From: a virus
DNA length: 40,744 nt
Direction: 5' to 3' (one strand)
Virus record (IMG/VR): IMGVR_UViG_3300020452_000858
Location: 1 to 40,744 of that record
The first letter of the stretch is position 1. Every line of letters begins with the position of its first letter. Position numbers and translations under genes: made by a program. Shown one piece after another: positions 13,189 to 34,876 of the stretch. Under the pieces are notes generated by a model, which did not search any database, was not told the origin of the DNA, and saw nothing but the letters and a program-made list of their open reading frames with translations.

Positions 13189-13718
13189 TTTATGATCACT
13201 CTCTCTAGTCCAGCGGTTTCAATTCTGTCAACAGTGAAAGACTCACCGCTTCCAGGATCGCCCACCTTAACCGTCGAAACCGACAACCCAACCAGTTCAC
13301 CCATAAACCAAAAGGAGTGCCGATTGACTGAACGTTCGCCGCGCGCAAAATCTTGACCCTTTTGCGTGACATGCCATCGCCGCGCATCGTCTCGCCAAAG
13401 AAGCCCCAGGTCAATCAACTTAGCATAATCCCCACCGCGGGCGTTGATTTCTTTGGACTCAAAGCTAACTCCGACTGAAAACCGTTCCACCAAATCCGTG
13501 AGCGCTCTGACCTGCCCGCGGTTGATTGATCGCTTGTAGAGTTTGACGCCAGCGCCACAACAGGGGCATAGCGTGCCGTCTATGGCTTTTTCAGCAAGAT
13601 CTAGGGCGGCTGCCTGCGTTGTACCGCTACGAGCCACCAGAACGCCCGCCAGACGCTTTAGAAAGCGCGGAGAGTTAACTGACACAGGCTCAGAAAATAA
13701 ATCAATCTGACTATCCAT
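13185..13718 (-). CDS. Hypothetical protein with CPCCG motif and winged-helix-like C-terminus
   Basis: A 177-residue protein. A CPCCGAG motif (about residues 52-58) suggests a small metal-binding or zinc-ribbon-like loop, but a second Cys pair is not obvious. Residues about 70-130 have the order of helices and a strand wing seen in winged-helix proteins (INRGQVRALTDLVERF, then YAKLIDLGLLWRDDARRWHVTQKG). A nucleic-acid-binding role is therefore plausible. It overlaps the upstream gene by 8 bases and the downstream gene by 4, so it is tightly coupled in the early leftward operon. Confidence 0.65.
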   Translation of the reverse strand: MDSQIDLFSEPVSVNSPRFLKRLAGVLVARSGTTQAAALDLAEKAIDGTLCPCCGAGVKLYKRSINRGQVRALTDLVERFSVGVSFESKEINARGGDYAKLIDLGLLWRDDARRWHVTQKGQDFARGERSVNRHSFWFMGELVGLSVSTVKVGDPGSGESFTVDRIETAGLERVIIK

Positions 13719-14019
13719 GATCGCACCCTGTCCATTTTTCCCAGGCTGAAAAAATCACACTTTCCATCAGCTCTAGTTGTCCGGCCGTCAATCCGTCAAC
13801 ATTGATCGGCATGCGCGCATCACCGCGCGCCATCACGAGCGTCACAAGGTCAATGAACCCACCGCCACCATCGTGGCACTGTTCTGGCAGCCCGCTAAGC
13901 ACTGGCGCTTCGTGCGGCTCTGCGTTGAATGTGACAACGCACTGCCCGAAGGCAGGCAATGCAATGGTGCCCATGTATGCGTTTGTGTCAAAGCTCCAGC
14001 ATTCTTCAAATTGTGCCAT
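13711..14019 (-). CDS. Hypothetical small protein with structured leader
   Basis: A 102-residue protein of unknown family, with an acidic N-terminus, a Gly run (HDGGGGFIDL) and a C-terminal helix. I start it at the ATG at 14019 because GGAGAG lies just upstream; the frame stays open further up but that part is leader. The leader closely matches the one before the GNAT gene at 34232: a hairpin with a TTCG loop, then CTTTCAATGGAGAGAA. No domain can be assigned. Confidence 0.65.
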   Translation of the reverse strand: MAQFEECWSFDTNAYMGTIALPAFGQCVVTFNAEPHEAPVLSGLPEQCHDGGGGFIDLVTLVMARGDARMPINVDGLTAGQLELMESVIFSAWEKWTGCDHG

Positions 14020-14054
14020 GATTCTCTCCATTGAAAGCCGTTCCGAAGGGCGGC
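14020..14054 (-). promoter_or_regulatory. TTCG-loop hairpin and shared leader motif
   Basis: Read on the minus strand, a GCCG...CGGC stem with a closing C-TTCG-G loop is followed by CTTTCAATGGAGAGAA and then the start codon. The same arrangement, nearly base for base, occurs at 34197-34231 on the plus strand. The stem has two internal mismatches, so it is weaker than its partner. It may be an mRNA processing or stability element between genes of one operon. Confidence 0.5.
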
Positions 14055-14066
14055 GGTCGTTCTGCA

Positions 14067-14282
14067 TTATTCCCATGCACCAAAAGCAATAAAGCCATCG
14101 TTGCCGCCCGCCCATATCGACGCATTGCGCCTCACAAGCTCAACGTGATGATCAGGACGAGTGTCTCGATGGTGCCTTGCCAAAGATTTGATAAGATCAA
14201 GACCGCGTGCGTCTGCGGTGTCAACGCTATGGCTCTCTTTCCCATTGATGATTAAAACTGCAATATTAAAAACCTTGTTCAT
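14067..14282 (-). CDS. Hypothetical small early protein
   Basis: A 71-residue protein starting at the ATG at 14282. This start was chosen because an ACGGAGA site lies 6 bases upstream, in a leader identical in design to that of the gene at 33837. The sequence is mixed alpha/beta (VFNIAVLIINGKESHSVD, then LDLIKSLARHHRD) with several His residues. It is the first gene of the leftward early-type unit. No family is recognised. Confidence 0.65.
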   Translation of the reverse strand: MNKVFNIAVLIINGKESHSVDTADARGLDLIKSLARHHRDTRPDHHVELVRRNASIWAGGNDGFIAFGAWE

Positions 14283-14351
14283 TTTGTTTCTCCGTTTGTT
14301 GTTTCTCTCAACATCTGTATACATAATTGCACCGATCGAGTGCATACGCAA
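14283..14351 (-). promoter_or_regulatory. Early-type promoter with TGCAC-N7-GTGCA palindrome
   Basis: On the minus strand TTGCGT (14351-14346) is followed after one base by TGCAC-N7-GTGCA (14344-14328) and then AT-rich ATTATGTATAC, where a -10 box would lie. The rest of the leader ends with GAAACAACAAACGGAGA. The palindrome lies where a -35/-10 spacer would be, a usual place for a repressor. Matching modules occur at 33769-33836 and 37445-37521. The leader here and at 33.8 kb is 45 bases from palindrome to ATG in both. Confidence 0.6.
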
Positions 14352-25000: not shown

Positions 25001-25866
25001 ACTTGGAAAAGCGGTCCGCAATGGACGCAAAGAGACAAGCTGAAGAATTGGCGGACGTTAGAGGTCCACAAGATGAGGCGGCTGCGCAGCAAGAGATTGC
25101 AAGGCAGCGTTCTGAGCGTGCACAATTTCTCGCAGAAATGAGCGATCTAGACAACTTGCACGCAATGGCGAAATTTGATGCCGAGACTGATAGACTCCGC
25201 AGGGAATATAAACAACAGGAATGGTTTCTGTCTTCATCTTTAGCAGAGCAAGCAAAAATAAATGAGGCATTTGACGGCGCGAGACTAAGAGCAAGAAAGA
25301 AGCACGCCAAAGAAATCGAGGAAATTGAACGCCAACAGGTGCTTAGTGCTATGTCTGCAACGGAAAACGCTATTGGTGAGATTGGCGCAGTGGCTGACGC
25401 TTTAGGTGCATCAGAATCTTTTGTGGGTAAAATCGAGGCGGCGCAGATAATTGCAAGAGGCATCATGCACGGTTTTGAGGGCGCAAGTGAGCAAGCAGAG
25501 GCCCTTTCTTCTTTTGCAGACGGAAACATTGCGGGCGGTGTGGCTCACCAAGCTGCAGCAATTGCACACTTTGCGCAGGCGGGCACAGCGCCAATTATGG
25601 CACGACGGGCAGCCACAAGAGGTGGAGGTGGTGGTGCTGGCGCGGGTGGATCTGTTGCAGCAAGCGGACCAAGAACTACCGCAAGAGAATCTAGACCAGA
25701 AAGAAATGAAAGGCAGGCAGCCGTGCAATTTGGTGACATTATTTTGGCTGACGTGCCGGCCCTTCTATCTAGAAACGGGTCACGCCAGCTTGGGCGGCAA
25801 ATTGCTGGTGACGTTGCGCGTGAGTTAAACAGGCGCCGAGCGTTGCCGGGAGGCGGAAACATATGA
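22051..25866 (+). CDS. Tape measure protein (TP901 family core)
   Basis: A 1271-residue protein, the longest gene here. Residues about 50-80 are very Ala/Gly-rich and hydrophobic. A TP901-type core follows at about 85-340 (FERQFAQVKTLNNQIGDDL, ATYQAISAGVAPTDVIEFM, AVELLTAGVNAFG). Hydrophobic segments at about 415-490 may cross the membrane during injection. A long charged coiled coil spans about 500-1100. A Gly-rich tail (RGGGGGAGAGGS) precedes the C-terminus. Tape measure length sets tail length; at about 0.15 nm per residue this predicts a tail of about 190 nm. It follows the frameshifted chaperone gene, as expected. Confidence 0.9.
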   Translation: MALNKISTEVISVKLEGAKEAEKELGGLKDGLEGVEDSTRGVDKATEEAGGGFSKLQAGVTTAGAAMAGFMAAAAAAGAAIKAIKAPVNLAIDFERQFAQVKTLNNQIGDDLKTELLALAAEVPQTAGDLTSATYQAISAGVAPTDVIEFMKAASQTAIAAGGSLTEAVELLTAGVNAFGKQGETAGSISNKLFATVKRGVTTIPELNSVFGRASAAASSYGVSVDEVLGAIAQMTLQGIPTNEAVTRINAVLKELSLESGKAARALKDKGVQLGVNALKQKGLVGVLEEVNKATRGQADATARLSTSQEAVQGLLKLTGDNMGAYASIVQGITDDTTAAGEATQVMADTTDGAQKLFESAKEGALRDLGLTVLPAVNELFVSMTREIGRSGSAVSSLGAVLRVGVKMLQFFVENLKPIAIGLASAFGVAYAPVFIAALGKMRAAIVAWNASLMPAGASGGMAYARGFMSSMTTIMTGPAAVGVIAALTTMLITSYNNAQREIIEKQRKQQREEAKTTTMEFLKDEKLNKQAIEESLKAENQRELLLKARVLTQKAVADGDRELAQGMRLLSADIDNNRGKQTKLEDLMLTNSEAAKVLARSLADTSTNAEDSAAAFMLKAQSSGSLAEKERILNEALKENKALHNESAEGASNAAQQVNLLAAAEEDAKGRIASLKAEYDRLNEESRGAFFFKNIAILVATFGEMPAELKPFYDEMVRINQVIEEGEKSSQNATIAQEDFQESMSLLRDDAVELTEELEKLAIAQGYASIVQDTYGKLISETTTALDDEIKMLKERAEWYKAEVLFDKEHVAIIEAGLKVEIKQARARHKQFEKDAKAAEQRRKRAIAGMNRVAAARFKNAQAAEKIRANAIISEEKLFLSELQHAKELEIAKLESDRKLDPVKKLQKRLKEEEMFAALILKQKLVVINEEEQQAQAAEERASKERRRKIKEAEKVASVRRGLLKEERKQTENNIAKIQQKADLEKRSAMDAKRQAEELADVRGPQDEAAAQQEIARQRSERAQFLAEMSDLDNLHAMAKFDAETDRLRREYKQQEWFLSSSLAEQAKINEAFDGARLRARKKHAKEIEEIERQQVLSAMSATENAIGEIGAVADALGASESFVGKIEAAQIIARGIMHGFEGASEQAEALSSFADGNIAGGVAHQAAAIAHFAQAGTAPIMARRAATRGGGGGAGAGGSVAASGPRTTARESRPERNERQAAVQFGDIILADVPALLSRNGSRQLGRQIAGDVARELNRRRALPGGGNI

Positions 25867-27425
25867 CACACACAATCAGAAGACCACAGATTGCCCTACT
25901 AGGAGAGTTTGACAGCACCCCGTACGCGGGCAGCGTCTATACGCGAAACGGTAACGCAGTGTCTGTAACTGCAATGACAAACAATGTGCCGCATTTTGAC
26001 GTTATAGCGTTTTTAAATGGCTATGGGTCTATTACGAACAACAGCTTAAAGAAGATCATGGATAATGCAAAGCCATCAGGGTTTGGATCTATTACTTGCG
26101 GGATCAATTCAGGCAATCGTTTCTACATAGAGGCGGCATCAACGTCTTTTGGGCTTGCGACTACAGGAACAAACCCCGAAGCAAGCCGAGAAATGTTTGG
26201 GTTTGACGGGACCGAATCCGTAAGTGGCTCGGGACCGTATACACTGACAGCGAGCAAGCGGTGGGCGCGCGGCGTCTTTCAAACTGATTACGATACTGTC
26301 GGCGGGTTAAAAATAGCTACATCATCAAGTGCAACAATGACAATGACCTATGCAAGCCAAGATCCAGGTCCAGCATCTGGACAGGTGACCATCACGTTTA
26401 CGGGTTTTACTGATGGCAATATAAACAACTTAGAAGTGGGCGGCACAGTCGAGGCCGTAAGCGCAGGAACGTCTTATACAATCGCTGGCTTCACTGTAGA
26501 CGGTAGCGGAAACCGCGTGGCCGTAATTGTCACCAGTGGATCAACCGTCAACCCTGGTCCATCCTATCAAGCTTCATACACATCAGAGTCCGTAACTGAT
26601 ATTGTCCCATCAAATCACCGCGTTCAGAATTTGGTTGCGTGGATACGCCAACGCACCGGAGTCTCTGACGCTGACGACATATATGCAGATCATTGTTTAG
26701 AGCGCTTCGAGTTTGCGGCCGGCAACACATCAATGACGGTTGTATTAGAAGAAGACGGCAGAATCTCCTTAAACTACCCATCATCTGTTGACTACAGCGG
26801 ACTAGCATCCGTGAGCGCTGCAGGTGAGGCGCTTTTTAGGCGTCTAGGTTTTGATGGCACGGAAACGGTGACCACAACAACCACAAACCACAGACAAATC
26901 AAGGGCAGCAATCGCGCGCCGTGCGTTTTAGCCACAGGGCGAGGCTATGTTAGCATGCGCAGAGAGGTGAGCGGACGAGATGAGTTAACCGTTATGGCTG
27001 ACGGATCAGTCATATCGTCAGGGCTGGCGCCAACAAAAGGTTGGTCGCTGACAATACGTGTGGATGGTCCTGCGCACGGCTATGCGTCTGACATGGAAAA
27101 GCATCTGCGCAACTGGTGGACGCACGCACGACGAGGGTTGACGATTTATCCAAGCTTCGGTGACCCAAACAACGGCGGTAAGGGTGGCAATGACACACGG
27201 AGGCATGCCGATTTGGAGAGCGTTTACGGATTAACGTCTAGACATAACGAAACGCAGACGGTCGAAGCCGACGAAAGTGAAACCCATTACGGAAAGAGGG
27301 TTGGCGGGCGCATTCTTGCCAGGCGTCACCCGTCCGACCAGCAATCACGGCGTGAATCGTACTCCGGGCAAATTGATATTCATCAAGATATTATACTTCG
27401 GCTTATAGACGACCCATCAAGGTAA
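25863..27425 (+). CDS. Distal tail structural protein with internal duplication
   Basis: A 520-residue protein overlapping the tape measure stop (ATGA) with a strong GGAGGCGG site. Placed right after the tape measure gene, it should be a distal tail or tail-tip subunit. Two parts look related: about residues 85-140 (ASREMFGFDGTESV then LTASKRWARGVF) and about 305-360 (GEALFRRLGFDGTETV then IKGSNRAPCVL). Each has a GFDGTE motif after a short helix. This is consistent with an internally duplicated beta-rich domain. Function beyond tail-tip structure is unknown. Confidence 0.65.
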   Translation: MTHTIRRPQIALLGEFDSTPYAGSVYTRNGNAVSVTAMTNNVPHFDVIAFLNGYGSITNNSLKKIMDNAKPSGFGSITCGINSGNRFYIEAASTSFGLATTGTNPEASREMFGFDGTESVSGSGPYTLTASKRWARGVFQTDYDTVGGLKIATSSSATMTMTYASQDPGPASGQVTITFTGFTDGNINNLEVGGTVEAVSAGTSYTIAGFTVDGSGNRVAVIVTSGSTVNPGPSYQASYTSESVTDIVPSNHRVQNLVAWIRQRTGVSDADDIYADHCLERFEFAAGNTSMTVVLEEDGRISLNYPSSVDYSGLASVSAAGEALFRRLGFDGTETVTTTTTNHRQIKGSNRAPCVLATGRGYVSMRREVSGRDELTVMADGSVISSGLAPTKGWSLTIRVDGPAHGYASDMEKHLRNWWTHARRGLTIYPSFGDPNNGGKGGNDTRRHADLESVYGLTSRHNETQTVEADESETHYGKRVGGRILARRHPSDQQSRRESYSGQIDIHQDIILRLIDDPSR

Positions 27426-27430
27426 TAAGA

Positions 27431-28123
27431 ATGAGCGAATCAGAAAGAGATTGGAACCTGGCCAAGCTTAACGCAGGGCTATTTGAGGACGACGTTTTAG
27501 GTGAGCTGATTAGATGCGGTGCAAGGGCCGTGCAGACGGCCGCAGGGCTTACCGTTGACGGGCTGGCGGGACCAGCAACGCGGGCAGCCGTTGAAGACGC
27601 CATAGGAAAGACGATAGAGGGCACTGGGGACCATGATGGGGTGCGGCCTACATACCAGGTGCCCATACCAAGAAGAAATGCCATAGAGAGCATTTACGGC
27701 ACCTTTAGGTACAAAGAGCACCCCGACACACCAGGCGCAATTATAATTGAGAAAGATTGGGTGAAGGCTAACATCACACGACTTGAGCTGCATACGGGGC
27801 AGAAAGTGTGGGTGCATCGGTCGATTGCTTTTGAAATGGGCGAACTTTATAAAAAAGCGTGTGAGGTTAGCGGATACACACCCGCAAAGGTAGCAAGTTG
27901 GGTGCCCCGACATATGAGGTGGGACAAGTCACGAAGCCTAAGCCGTCATTCGTGGGGAATAGCTTTCGATATTGATTGGCACCTAAACGGCATCGGAATG
28001 TCTGACACGCCCTTACATCGACACCCAGAATGGGTAGAAGTGTTTAGGGGCGCAGGGTGGAATTGCGGCATTGACTGGAGAACATACAATGATCCTATGC
28101 ACTTTGAGCGGACAGCGCGCTAG
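27431..28123 (+). CDS. Endolysin: M15-type peptidase with peptidoglycan-binding domain
   Basis: A 230-residue protein. Residues about 8-60 form a PG_binding_1-like domain (LAKLNAGLFEDDVLGELI, AVQTAAGLTVDGLAGPATRAAV). The C-terminal half is an M15 zinc peptidase: H173 and D180 in SRHSWGIAFDID and H224 in DPMHFE are the metal ligands; these enzymes cut D-Ala-containing bonds in peptide stems. It probably degrades cell wall at lysis, or locally at infection since it ends the tail operon. No signal peptide is visible. Its stop shares the palindrome CTAG with the convergent sulfotransferase gene. A transglycosylase at 32.6 kb is a second muralytic enzyme. Confidence 0.85.
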   Translation: MSESERDWNLAKLNAGLFEDDVLGELIRCGARAVQTAAGLTVDGLAGPATRAAVEDAIGKTIEGTGDHDGVRPTYQVPIPRRNAIESIYGTFRYKEHPDTPGAIIIEKDWVKANITRLELHTGQKVWVHRSIAFEMGELYKKACEVSGYTPAKVASWVPRHMRWDKSRSLSRHSWGIAFDIDWHLNGIGMSDTPLHRHPEWVEVFRGAGWNCGIDWRTYNDPMHFERTAR

Positions 28124-28716
28124 CTTTCTGGAAAAGTCTGATAATCGAAAAAGTAGAAGTCTTGAGCGTAGACCTGAAGCACCTTCTCCAAGACCGCAGT
28201 GGGTGCGGCCGACCAGTCCACGAATAGCTGCAAGGATTTGCCAAGGTGGGGCATGCTGGAGTTGCTAGAAATCCAGCCACGGAATGCCAAAGCTTGAGCA
28301 ACTTGCGCAAGCCCGTCTTCATATCTAAACACTTCAGAACTGTCTAGAACAAACTCCGATGCAGGTCTTAAGCACATATTCCAGACCGTGTAGATCTTTT
28401 CCGTAGGCATATCCATAAAAGATCGAAAAAGCTCAGACGCGCTTGACACGTTGCCATGTACAGAAAACGCACTAGCTATTCTGTCCATAGGGTGCCTAAT
28501 GATAGCAAAGCTCTTAGGCAGGCAGCCCCTATAGTGCGCCCGAATCTCAAAATAGTTAAAGTGACGACTTTCGCGGCCGTGCATTTCGTAAGAAGTGGAC
28601 CAGCCGGCCGTCTCCATCATCTTCACAATGGTACGGCCGCCAGTCCTGGGTACATGGCAGAAGTAAACGCGCTCATTTTCGCCCGTCTTGTGGTTCTTTC
28701 TGCACAGTTCAACCAT
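28120..28716 (-). CDS. Sulfotransferase-like protein
   Basis: A 198-residue protein. I use the ATG at 28716, which overlaps the previous stop; a TTG 27 bases upstream is an alternative. It has both PAPS-binding motifs of sulfotransferases: a P-loop-like 5' site (HVPRTGGRTI, about residues 21-30) and a 3' site (IIRHPMDRIASAF, about 72-84, with R74 and S82). The family transfers sulfate from PAPS to hydroxyls or amines on carbohydrates or other molecules. It is rare in phages. It sits with coiled-coil and SSB genes on a short leftward unit. The substrate is unknown; modifying a host envelope glycan is a reasonable guess. Confidence 0.75.
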   Translation of the reverse strand: MVELCRKNHKTGENERVYFCHVPRTGGRTIVKMMETAGWSTSYEMHGRESRHFNYFEIRAHYRGCLPKSFAIIRHPMDRIASAFSVHGNVSSASELFRSFMDMPTEKIYTVWNMCLRPASEFVLDSSEVFRYEDGLAQVAQALAFRGWISSNSSMPHLGKSLQLFVDWSAAPTAVLEKVLQVYAQDFYFFDYQTFPES

Positions 28717-28917: not shown

Positions 28918-29349
28918 TTACCAGGGGCTATTGCTTTTTGACGGGTCTTGGCTTGTGAAACCACCTTCAGAATTGCCCCACGCGCCAGAATTTCCGCCAT
29001 GTTGAAAAGAATTTGCCGCGGATTCGCCACCAAAAGGTGTGATCTTGTCTACTTTGATTTCTTTTACATAGATTTTTTGACCGTCTTTTTCATAGCTGTC
29101 GGTTGAAAGCGTACCCTGCACGATAACCTTAGAGCCTTGCCGCAAATAGGCCTGCGCGGTCTCCGCGGTGCCATTCCAAAGCACAGCCTTATTGAACTGC
29201 CTGCCTTCTCTAAGCTCGCCCTGCCTTGTTTTGTATGCGTGCCGTGTTTCAAGGTTTATGCGTGCAACCATTGATCCGCCGTCAAACTGCTTGACCATCG
29301 GATCGTCTGTTATAGTGCCGCTAATGATCACAGTGTTTATGTCATTCAT
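28918..29349 (-). CDS. ssb: Single-stranded DNA-binding protein
   Basis: A 143-residue OB-fold SSB. The first 100 residues show the family pattern: NTVIISGTITDDPMVKQF, ARINLETRHAYKT, FNKAVLWNGTAETAQAYLRQG, VIVQGTLSTDSYEKDGQKIYV. The C-terminal tail is short, Gly/Ser/Asn-rich and ends SPW; it lacks the acidic DDDIPF tip used by cellular SSBs to recruit partners. The start overlaps the upstream stop (ATGA) and has an ACGGAGA site like other early genes here. It coats ssDNA in replication and recombination. Confidence 0.92.
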   Translation of the reverse strand: MNDINTVIISGTITDDPMVKQFDGGSMVARINLETRHAYKTRQGELREGRQFNKAVLWNGTAETAQAYLRQGSKVIVQGTLSTDSYEKDGQKIYVKEIKVDKITPFGGESAANSFQHGGNSGAWGNSEGGFTSQDPSKSNSPW

Positions 29350-29719: not shown

Positions 29720-30520
29720 ATGACACACATTCGACCACAAAAAACTATTGCGGCGTTTTTACTTACTGACGGCGGCGGCGCAAAGCTTTCAAAACTTTCA
29801 ACGCTTCCATTGTGCTCAGTGCTGCTTGCGGTGTCATTACTGACAGATGCGCACAGCGTATCCAAGTGTAGTCAGCAACAAATTGCCGACGGGCTAGGAA
29901 TCGGGCTTAGAACGGTGAAGAATACATTCAAGGAACTGCTTGCCCTTGGAATACTTCGGAAGCTATCGAGAGGCGCATATGGTGTCACCTCTTACGACAA
30001 CCTTGAGCTAAGGTGCAACCACTGCACCTTCAGCATAGATAAGTGCAACCATTGCACCTTCGGAAAAGATAAGTGCAACCATTGCACCTTCGGCGCTTTA
30101 GATTCTGAGAAATCTGAAGAGTATACAATTATAAAAGACTACCCGGTAAGTGGTAGTCAGGTTATCAGCAACGACGACAACCGACAACAGAAAATTGAAA
30201 GACTTGAAAAGATTGTTTGTGACAACCTCGGTACGGCGGTCTGGGCACAGTCGATGAACTGGGCAGACTTAATGAATCGAGCCGAGTGGGATTTGGATAC
30301 GGTGACGGACGCGATCATTTCATATAAGGACAAAGTAATAGGCGCGGGACAGAGGCATCGATTCTCTAGGCTCTATACTTTTGTCAAGACAGAGGCAGAG
30401 TCAAAGCGGGCTCGACGTCCGCTGAGGCCAAACTATACACCACAAGATGTGGAAGACGAAGGGCAGAGAATAACGGAGGGCACTATGGGTGAACTATTGG
30501 AAAGGTTAAAGAATGTTTGA
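29720..30520 (+). CDS. Replication initiator, lambda O-like, with internal iterons
   Basis: A 266-residue protein. Residues about 45-85 form a helix-turn-helix (KCSQQQIADGLGIGLRTVKNTFKELLALG). About 97-125 hold three copies of CNHCTF spaced exactly 10 residues; these are encoded by 30-bp DNA repeats (iterons). The C-terminal part is helical, ends near residue 266 and directly precedes the DnaB gene. This is the lambda O/P arrangement: the initiator binds iterons in its own gene, melts the origin and recruits the helicase. An alternative reading is that the CxxC pairs bind zinc. Start context is AGGGTA before ATG. Its gene is divergent from the SSB operon. Confidence 0.8.
   Translation: MTHIRPQKTIAAFLLTDGGGAKLSKLSTLPLCSVLLAVSLLTDAHSVSKCSQQQIADGLGIGLRTVKNTFKELLALGILRKLSRGAYGVTSYDNLELRCNHCTFSIDKCNHCTFGKDKCNHCTFGALDSEKSEEYTIIKDYPVSGSQVISNDDNRQQKIERLEKIVCDNLGTAVWAQSMNWADLMNRAEWDLDTVTDAIISYKDKVIGAGQRHRFSRLYTFVKTEAESKRARRPLRPNYTPQDVEDEGQRITEGTMGELLERLKNV
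30013..30140 (+). repeat. Predicted replication origin: three 30-bp iterons and AT-rich region
   Basis: Three direct repeats start at 30013, 30043 and 30073, an exact 30-bp period (about three helical turns). Each core is GTGCAACCATTGCAC (15-bp palindrome, C for T in the first copy) followed by CTTC; copies two and three agree over 23 bases. An AT-rich stretch (30098-30140) follows, as expected for a DNA-unwinding element. The half-site GTGCA also forms the palindromes at the early promoters, but arranged in the opposite sense. Confidence 0.7.
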
Positions 30521-33768: not shown

Positions 33769-33836
33769 TTGCAATGCACGTCAAAGGTGGATACGATATT
33801 CTTAAGAGTTGAGGGAAACAACAAACGGAGAAAAAA
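33769..33836 (+). promoter_or_regulatory. Early-type promoter with TGCAC-N7-GTGCA-like palindrome
   Basis: TTGCAA (33769-33774), then the palindrome TGCAC-N7-GTGGA (33775-33791, one mismatch), then TACGAT (33792-33797) as -10: a -35/-10 pair with 17-bp spacing whose spacer is the palindrome. The leader ends with GAAACAACAAACGGAGA before ATG at 33837. Compare the modules at 14283-14351 and 37445-37521. The 150 bases upstream (33617-33768) hold no gene; AACTGTTTTC at 33740 recurs at 37383. Confidence 0.6.
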
Positions 33837-34088
33837 ATGCTTACACGATTTGACTTCACGAAAAACGAAAGAGACCTACTGAATACCGCCGTGTCCTGTG
33901 GGCTTGTTGACCCCGTTGGATTGGCGTGCATAGTGGCGAGCCACGCAAACAGCATGGACGCGATTATCAGCAAGCTTTCCGAAATTTGTTGGACGCTTAG
34001 GACTGGCAGCGATGCAGAGCAGGAAACGAGATCACGATGGATTGATGCTTGTGATTATTTTCGTTTCATCGATGATGATCAAGGCTAG
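33837..34088 (+). CDS. Hypothetical small early protein
   Basis: An 83-residue protein at the head of the rightward early-type unit, with an ACGGAGA site identical in type to that of the leftward unit. It is mostly helical (LLNTAVSCGLVDPVGLACIVASHANSM, then AIISKLSEICWTLR) with an acidic end (CDYFRFIDDDQG). No family is recognised. It does not resemble its counterpart at 14067-14282. Confidence 0.65.
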   Translation: MLTRFDFTKNERDLLNTAVSCGLVDPVGLACIVASHANSMDAIISKLSEICWTLRTGSDAEQETRSRWIDACDYFRFIDDDQG

Positions 34089-34097
34089 GAAAAAGAG

Positions 34098-34184
34098 ATG
34101 CGGTCTTACAACAAAGAGCAGTACAAAGATTGGAGAACCACAAAACCCACACCGCATGACCCGTACGGGTTGAGAAAAGTTTGA
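34098..34184 (+). CDS. Micro-protein of 28 residues
   Basis: A 28-codon frame with a GGAAAAAGAG site 1-9 bases before its ATG. It encodes a basic, Pro/Tyr-rich peptide (RSYNKEQYKDWRTTKP, then HDPYGLRKV). It lies between the first gene of the unit and the hairpin leader of the GNAT gene. The clear ribosome site and position support translation, but the size makes it uncertain. Confidence 0.45.
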   Translation: MRSYNKEQYKDWRTTKPTPHDPYGLRKV

Positions 34185-34196
34185 AGATAAATAACA

Positions 34197-34231
34197 GTCG
34201 CCCTTCGGGGCGGCTTTCAATGGAGAGAAGG
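34197..34231 (+). promoter_or_regulatory. TTCG-loop hairpin and shared leader motif
   Basis: A 7-bp stem (GTCGCCC / GGGCGGC, one G-T pair) closes an exact TTCG loop, the most stable RNA tetraloop in this context. It is followed by TTTCAATGGAGAGAAGG and the start codon at 34232. The same block lies at 14020-14054 before an unrelated gene. A weak attenuator, RNA stability or processing element is possible. Confidence 0.55.
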
Positions 34232-34876
34232 ATGGAGAATTTAATCAAGTTACAGAAGGCGGGATTTCTGATTAGAAGGTTAGACTACGCAGTATCGCGC
34301 TCGTTTTGTTTTTGCGAAACATTCGGGCTTTTTAATGTTGATGGTGAGGCGTGTGGGCTTTTGCAGGTATCTCTCGACGAACCGCTTTCTCATGATTTAT
34401 CTGAGAAGGAGTTTCGCAACCATTTGTTCGATATTGGCGATTCGGTTGATAGTGATTGCGAAATAACGGCGGTTGAGATTTATGAAAAATTTAAGTCTGA
34501 CCCGAATTTTATGAATGATTTGCGCGGTGTTAGCTATTGGAGCCACGTTGATTATTGCTTTGTCAGCAAAGAATGCCGAGGGCAGGGGCTCGGCGCGCTG
34601 TTTTTGTTGGCGTATGTGGAAGGGTTCGCGCCTAGCCGAATCATTACAGCAATACCTGAACTAAAGAGCGCAAAGCTGATTGAATACTGGCAAAAGGTTG
34701 CGGGGTTTCAGCCGCTCAATCCGCTCAAACACGGGGGTCCAATTTTTATGTTTTCGCCGAACGACTCAAGCCTCGATTCTGTGGAGCGGTTGGGGGAATT
34801 GATGATGAGCCATAAACGAGAGGCTCATGGCGTAAGCTCGGATGATGACGACGCAGAATGGTTAAGCAAAAGGTAA
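34232..34876 (+). CDS. GNAT-family acetyltransferase
   Basis: A 214-residue protein starting at the ATG at 34232 with a GGAGAG site. The GNAT acetyl-CoA motif A is visible at residues about 105-125 (VDYCFVSKECRGQGLGALF, R/Q-x-x-G-x-G/A). A later segment (ITAIPELKSAKLIEYWQKVAGF) fits motif B. GNAT enzymes move acetyl from CoA to amines. In phages they may inactivate toxins, host factors or DNA-binding proteins. The substrate is unknown. The N-terminal 90 residues are divergent. It is translated from the leader shared with the 14-kb unit. Confidence 0.75.
   Translation: MENLIKLQKAGFLIRRLDYAVSRSFCFCETFGLFNVDGEACGLLQVSLDEPLSHDLSEKEFRNHLFDIGDSVDSDCEITAVEIYEKFKSDPNFMNDLRGVSYWSHVDYCFVSKECRGQGLGALFLLAYVEGFAPSRIITAIPELKSAKLIEYWQKVAGFQPLNPLKHGGPIFMFSPNDSSLDSVERLGELMMSHKREAHGVSSDDDDAEWLSKR

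Follow-up and report, generated by a model that had tools for sequence, protein, structure and literature searches.

A sulfotransferase-like gene at the end of a predicted SSB operon in an IMG/VR virus

The window analysed here spans an entire IMG/VR virus record (40,744 bases). On its minus strand, a Cys-rich ORF is followed by the gene for a single-strand DNA-binding protein (SSB), by a short coiled-coil-like ORF and, in last position, by a sulfotransferase-like gene, which meets an endolysin-like gene tail-to-tail with an overlap of 4 bases (Table 1). Divergently from these genes are encoded a candidate replication protein with a winged helix and a helicase of the DnaB type. Given the gene overlaps and spacing, the four minus-strand genes probably form a single operon, which would be expressed with the replication genes; promoter and terminator scans gave results no better than those for shuffled sequence. 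The location in an SSB operon, away from the fibres, had been pointed out in the preliminary description, and the gene is indeed the last of four that include SSB, distant from fibre and sugar genes. Family searches returned no match for the Cys-rich ORF and no convincing match for the coiled-coil-like ORF, and among the window ORFs searched, a part of the total, neither a glycosyltransferase nor a PAPS-making gene was recognised.

The sulfotransferase ORF runs from an ATG at 28716 to a stop at 28120-28122; it is intact and lies exactly where the preliminary description had placed it. A version started at a TTG and reaching 28743 is possible on sequence grounds but less likely, because the relatives begin at the equivalent of 28716.

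Table 1. Features at the sulfotransferase-like locus, in window coordinates
Feature	Position	Strand	Remarks
Cys-rich ORF, 130 aa	29346..29738	-	Uncertain start; heads the minus-strand operon
SSB gene	28918..29349	-	PHROG 44 E 3e-31, PF00436 E 7e-21
Short coiled-coil-like ORF, 67 aa	28709..28912	-	Overlaps sulfotransferase start by 8 bases
Sulfotransferase-like gene	28120..28716	-	198 aa, intact; PF03567 above cut-off, AF2 fold, two syntenic homologues
5'-phosphosulfate-binding loop FCHVPRTGGRT, residues 19-29	28630..28662	-	Alignments A1, A3
H52, candidate catalytic base	28561..28563	-	Conserved in alignment; profile match to SULT HLP-type His
3'-phosphate-binding motif RHPMDRIAS, residues 74-82	28471..28497	-	R74 and S82 invariant
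Endolysin-like peptidase (M15-type) gene	27431..28123	+	PF13539 E 5e-11, PHROG endolysins

Two sets of repeats were observed in the window. Tandem repeats with a spacing of about 30 bases and short palindrome-like cores occupy positions 30013-30102, within the gene for the replication protein candidate (29720-30520). Repeats with other sequences are found in the same gene and at the same spacing in all four related contigs described below (L074 4929-5018, L075 2073-2150, L076 2997-3111, L077 3575-3694). They look like an iteron-type origin inside the initiator gene, an arrangement found in the O gene of phage lambda. The second set consists of two inverted pairs about 20 kb apart, one of 42 nt (14016-14057 and 34194-34235) and one of 30 nt (14283-14312 and 33808-33837), each near the starts of genes at 13711-14115 (minus) and 34181-34876 (plus). 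The 42-nt repeat contains a GC-rich hairpin adjoining a likely start codon and is possibly a shared leader.

The search against sulfotransferase families that had been proposed at the outset supports the assignment. Sulfotransfer_2 (PF03567) was the best Pfam match of the 198-aa protein, with an E-value of 3.1e-7 and a score of 31.2 bits for a curated cut-off of 22 bits; the two syntenic homologues scored 37.9 and 31.3 bits. The best PHROG (3347, E 1.5e-7) agrees with this, its name 'Galactose-3-O-sulfotransferase' being an annotation by homology. A search of solved structures with the single window sequence gave no match, and a five-sequence profile gave weak matches only.

Both PAPS-binding motifs reported in the preliminary description were recovered, and conservation was assessed in an alignment of 39 sequences (A3), 38 of which match Sulfotransfer_2. 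The conservation of F19 to G27 was set aside as evidence, because the scan pattern used to collect the relatives demanded those residues. H52, R74 and S82 lie outside that motif, and their conservation is therefore informative: every one of the 38 proteins having the column carries H52, and R74 and S82 are found in 39 of 39. When the A3 profile was compared with the PDB, cytosolic sulfotransferases (SULTs) were found (E 8e-6), with the invariant histidine aligned to their HLP-type histidine. H52 is thus the candidate catalytic base. We take His108 of SULT1A1 to be the histidine of the HLP-type motif. That residue is catalytic in SULT1A1 (PMC3206062), and heparan sulfate 2-O-sulfotransferase requires His142 (PMC6094399). 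At the sequence level, the presumed PAPS-pocket residues are conserved, with a recognisable 3'-phosphate-binding R...S motif and a recognisable 5'-phosphosulfate-binding loop in which R replaces the usual K at position 24. This arginine is found in all three members of the clade, and most relatives have a lysine that their search pattern demanded. The arginines R78 and R79 of the tyrosylprotein sulfotransferases presumably sit in the same 5' loop. In these enzymes an arginine is catalytic, R78 in TPST2 and R79 in TPST1 (PMC5562738).

A structure prediction without a sulfotransferase fold had been named beforehand as the result that would count against the idea; the predicted structure does show the fold. 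With three sequences only, AlphaFold gave a pLDDT of 42.7, and the AF2 model built from A3 reached a mean pLDDT of 93.4 and a pTM of 0.88, to be read with caution as a fold test given that the relatives in A3 were collected with the 5'-loop motif. In a Foldseek search of the PDB, sulfotransferases came on top with modest E-values (best 2e-3). After structural re-alignment with VIA-align, the best 50 PDB rows listed were all sulfotransferases, headed by heparan sulfate 2-O-sulfotransferase 3f5f (Z 9.9 over 168 residues, rmsd 3.7). In a viral structure library, the best match was a sulfotransferase family protein of Prochlorococcus phage P-SSM7 (E 4e-9), the top matches were Prochlorococcus and Synechococcus phage proteins annotated as sulfotransferases, and a match was also obtained for Gp5.1 of Roseobacter phage SIO1. 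The protein is therefore predicted to adopt the sulfotransferase alpha/beta fold. Nucleotide kinases do appear low in the Foldseek list, as they might if this were another P-loop protein, for example a kinase with look-alike motifs, but with all of the best 50 re-aligned structures listed being sulfotransferases and with Pfam and PHROG in agreement, we give this explanation hardly any credence.

We conclude that the protein very probably belongs to the PAPS-dependent sulfotransferase superfamily, in its Sulfotransfer_2 branch. Supported by the profile, the fold and the conserved catalytic residues, the enzyme class and the general mode of action, PAPS-dependent sulfate transfer, are likely, and the protein would be catalytically active. 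It might instead bind PAPS or PAP after losing its activity: the arginine that replaces lysine in the 5' loop of the whole clade could reduce activity, although the tyrosylprotein sulfotransferases do employ an arginine in catalysis, and the protein is small for a Pfam profile of 252 positions. However, the candidate catalytic histidine and both phosphate-binding residues are kept, the gene appears to be under purifying selection (see below), and many viral relatives are equally short, so that a loss of activity seems quite improbable.

Relatives of the window were sought among viral contigs. A scan with the sulfotransferase protein alone found none, nor did a tail-gene query (25863-27422), and related contigs were found via the neighbouring genes. 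Among known phages there was no near DNA match to the window, and searches with its terminase, capsid and tail proteins led to no annotated phage. Two of the related contigs carry a sulfotransferase in the same slot, G001 with 48% identity and G003 with 43%; the terminase of G001 is 97% identical to that of the window, and G003, a fragment of 4.8 kb, stops next to the sulfotransferase gene, with the endolysin side lying beyond its end. In both homologues the reading frame and the motifs are preserved, as is the length (199 and 201 aa). Between the three homologues, pN was 0.36-0.39 versus a pS of 0.74-0.85, with silent sites saturated, a pattern of purifying selection as judged from the sequences. 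In two other contigs, G005 and G006, the neighbouring genes are the same but the sulfotransferase gene is missing. In G005 the endolysin gene directly meets the coiled-coil ORF, leaving the slot empty; in G006 an unrelated ORF of 115 aa (L077 1719-2066, minus strand) lies between them, for which family searches and PADLOC gave no match, and this replacement suggests a slot for swappable cargo. An equivalent of the 67-aa coiled-coil-like ORF is present in the four relatives (of four) having the region. Because it occupies the same slot in two relatives and is missing from two others, the sulfotransferase gene appears to be maintained but dispensable across this group of contigs. A small intact gene that some similar relatives have and others lack, in a phage with a compact genome of 40 kb, makes a tractable case for an acceptor search.

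A separate observation concerns SSB (28921-29349 in the window, with L074 3877-4269 and L075 904-1413 in the relatives compared): the window protein shares 58% identity with the SSB of G003 versus 30% with that of G001, the contig with the 97% identical terminase. SSB departs from the rest of the genome, which suggests that it was replaced through recombination.

The preliminary description had held such enzymes to be rare in phages, which did not prove to be the case. A strict motif scan gave at least 120 matches in viral contigs, some of which may be other than phage, and all 80 loci examined had an open frame with the motif. Relatives are carried by phages of Synechococcus, Prochlorococcus and Pelagibacter, and a scan of genome contigs yielded one weak relative from Burkholderiales. 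Sulfotransferases in phages have also been reported elsewhere (PMC8290583), and according to work on OM43 phages published in 2023, what they do in phage genomes is still unclear (PMC10580990). The family is thus common in viruses, and the window protein is a divergent addition to a known group; sulfotransferase genes recur in many bacterial viruses, and taken alone this gene is one more member. The neighbours of the other viral relatives are mixed and include head closure genes, endonucleases and, in part, sugar enzymes.

As to the role of the enzyme, a small soluble member of the Sulfotransfer_2 branch would take sulfate from PAPS and transfer it to an intracellular acceptor; with a surface glycan or its precursor as acceptor, the surface of the infected cell would be altered. 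The PAPS would be that of the host, no PAPS-making gene being recognised among the window ORFs searched. A host cell-surface glycan or its precursor is our likeliest guess for the acceptor, by analogy and tentatively; as no glycosyltransferase was recognised either, we keep sulfation of a host surface glycan as a hypothesis. The structural ranking does not discriminate: Z differences under 1 are ties, glycan and small-molecule sulfotransferases are tied in the VIA-align list, and the acceptor is therefore not readable from it. The enzyme could instead sulfate a host small molecule or protein, for example so as to disable a signal or a part of the defence at an early stage of infection. The superfamily contains small-molecule and protein sulfotransferases, a signal peptide or membrane segment is not evident in the sequence, and the gene ends the SSB operon beside the replication genes, with no sugar genes recognised nearby. 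Nevertheless, a PADLOC search for a defence role gave no family match, no specific target is indicated by any of the data, and the best-matching solved structure belongs to a glycan sulfotransferase, albeit with the tie just mentioned; such a target is rather doubtful. That an early-expressed enzyme, encoded in a swappable slot ending the SSB operon, serves takeover or counter-defence by sulfating not a surface glycan but another molecule of the host, such as a signal, a nucleotide or a protein of its defence, is a long shot.

Among known systems, the 'Galactose-3-O-sulfotransferase' of Synechococcus phage ACG-2014f (YP_009134445.1; PHROG 3347) resembles the window protein in Pfam family, PAPS motifs, size (about 205 aa) and in being phage-encoded; across 73% of the length they are about 24% identical. 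The two differ in setting, the ACG-2014f gene lying in a glycan-modification cluster and the window gene in an SSB operon. The putative sulfotransferase of Pelagibacter phage Mosig EXVC030M is likewise a Sulfotransfer_2 protein of similar size, about 24% identical, encoded among glycosyltransferase and methyltransferase genes; across the Synechococcus and Pelagibacter phage relatives, the surroundings comprise glycosyltransferase, epimerase and methyltransferase genes. The Mosig enzyme (L064) needs a source of PAPS in Pelagibacter, which to our knowledge is without assimilatory sulfate reduction. These surroundings would also suit an enzyme that modifies the phage's own parts, a virion protein or its glycan: in ACG-2014f a tail fibre gene lies about 2 kb away, and some viral relatives adjoin head-closure genes. 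The window gene, however, lies on the strand opposite the tail genes, within the SSB operon and with no glycosyltransferase recognised, and we consider a virion target unlikely.

Heparan sulfate 2-O-sulfotransferase (3f5f, 4ndz), itself PAPS-dependent, shares the fold with the window protein and is its best structural match, but as a larger animal Golgi enzyme with 14% identity it offers no acceptor that could be transferred to the window protein. Among bacterial proteins, those of sulfotransferase family 2 encoded on Sulfitobacter and Phaeobacter plasmids share 25-26% identity with the homologue in G001, of which about 90% is covered; the Sulfitobacter gene lies near Wzz and sugar transferase genes, and the Phaeobacter gene adjoins glycosyltransferase and GDP-sugar (polysaccharide) genes. 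The context within the window adds nothing to the choice of acceptor, and it is the sugar-gene neighbours in the Synechococcus and Pelagibacter phages and on the Phaeobacter plasmid that favour a glycan.
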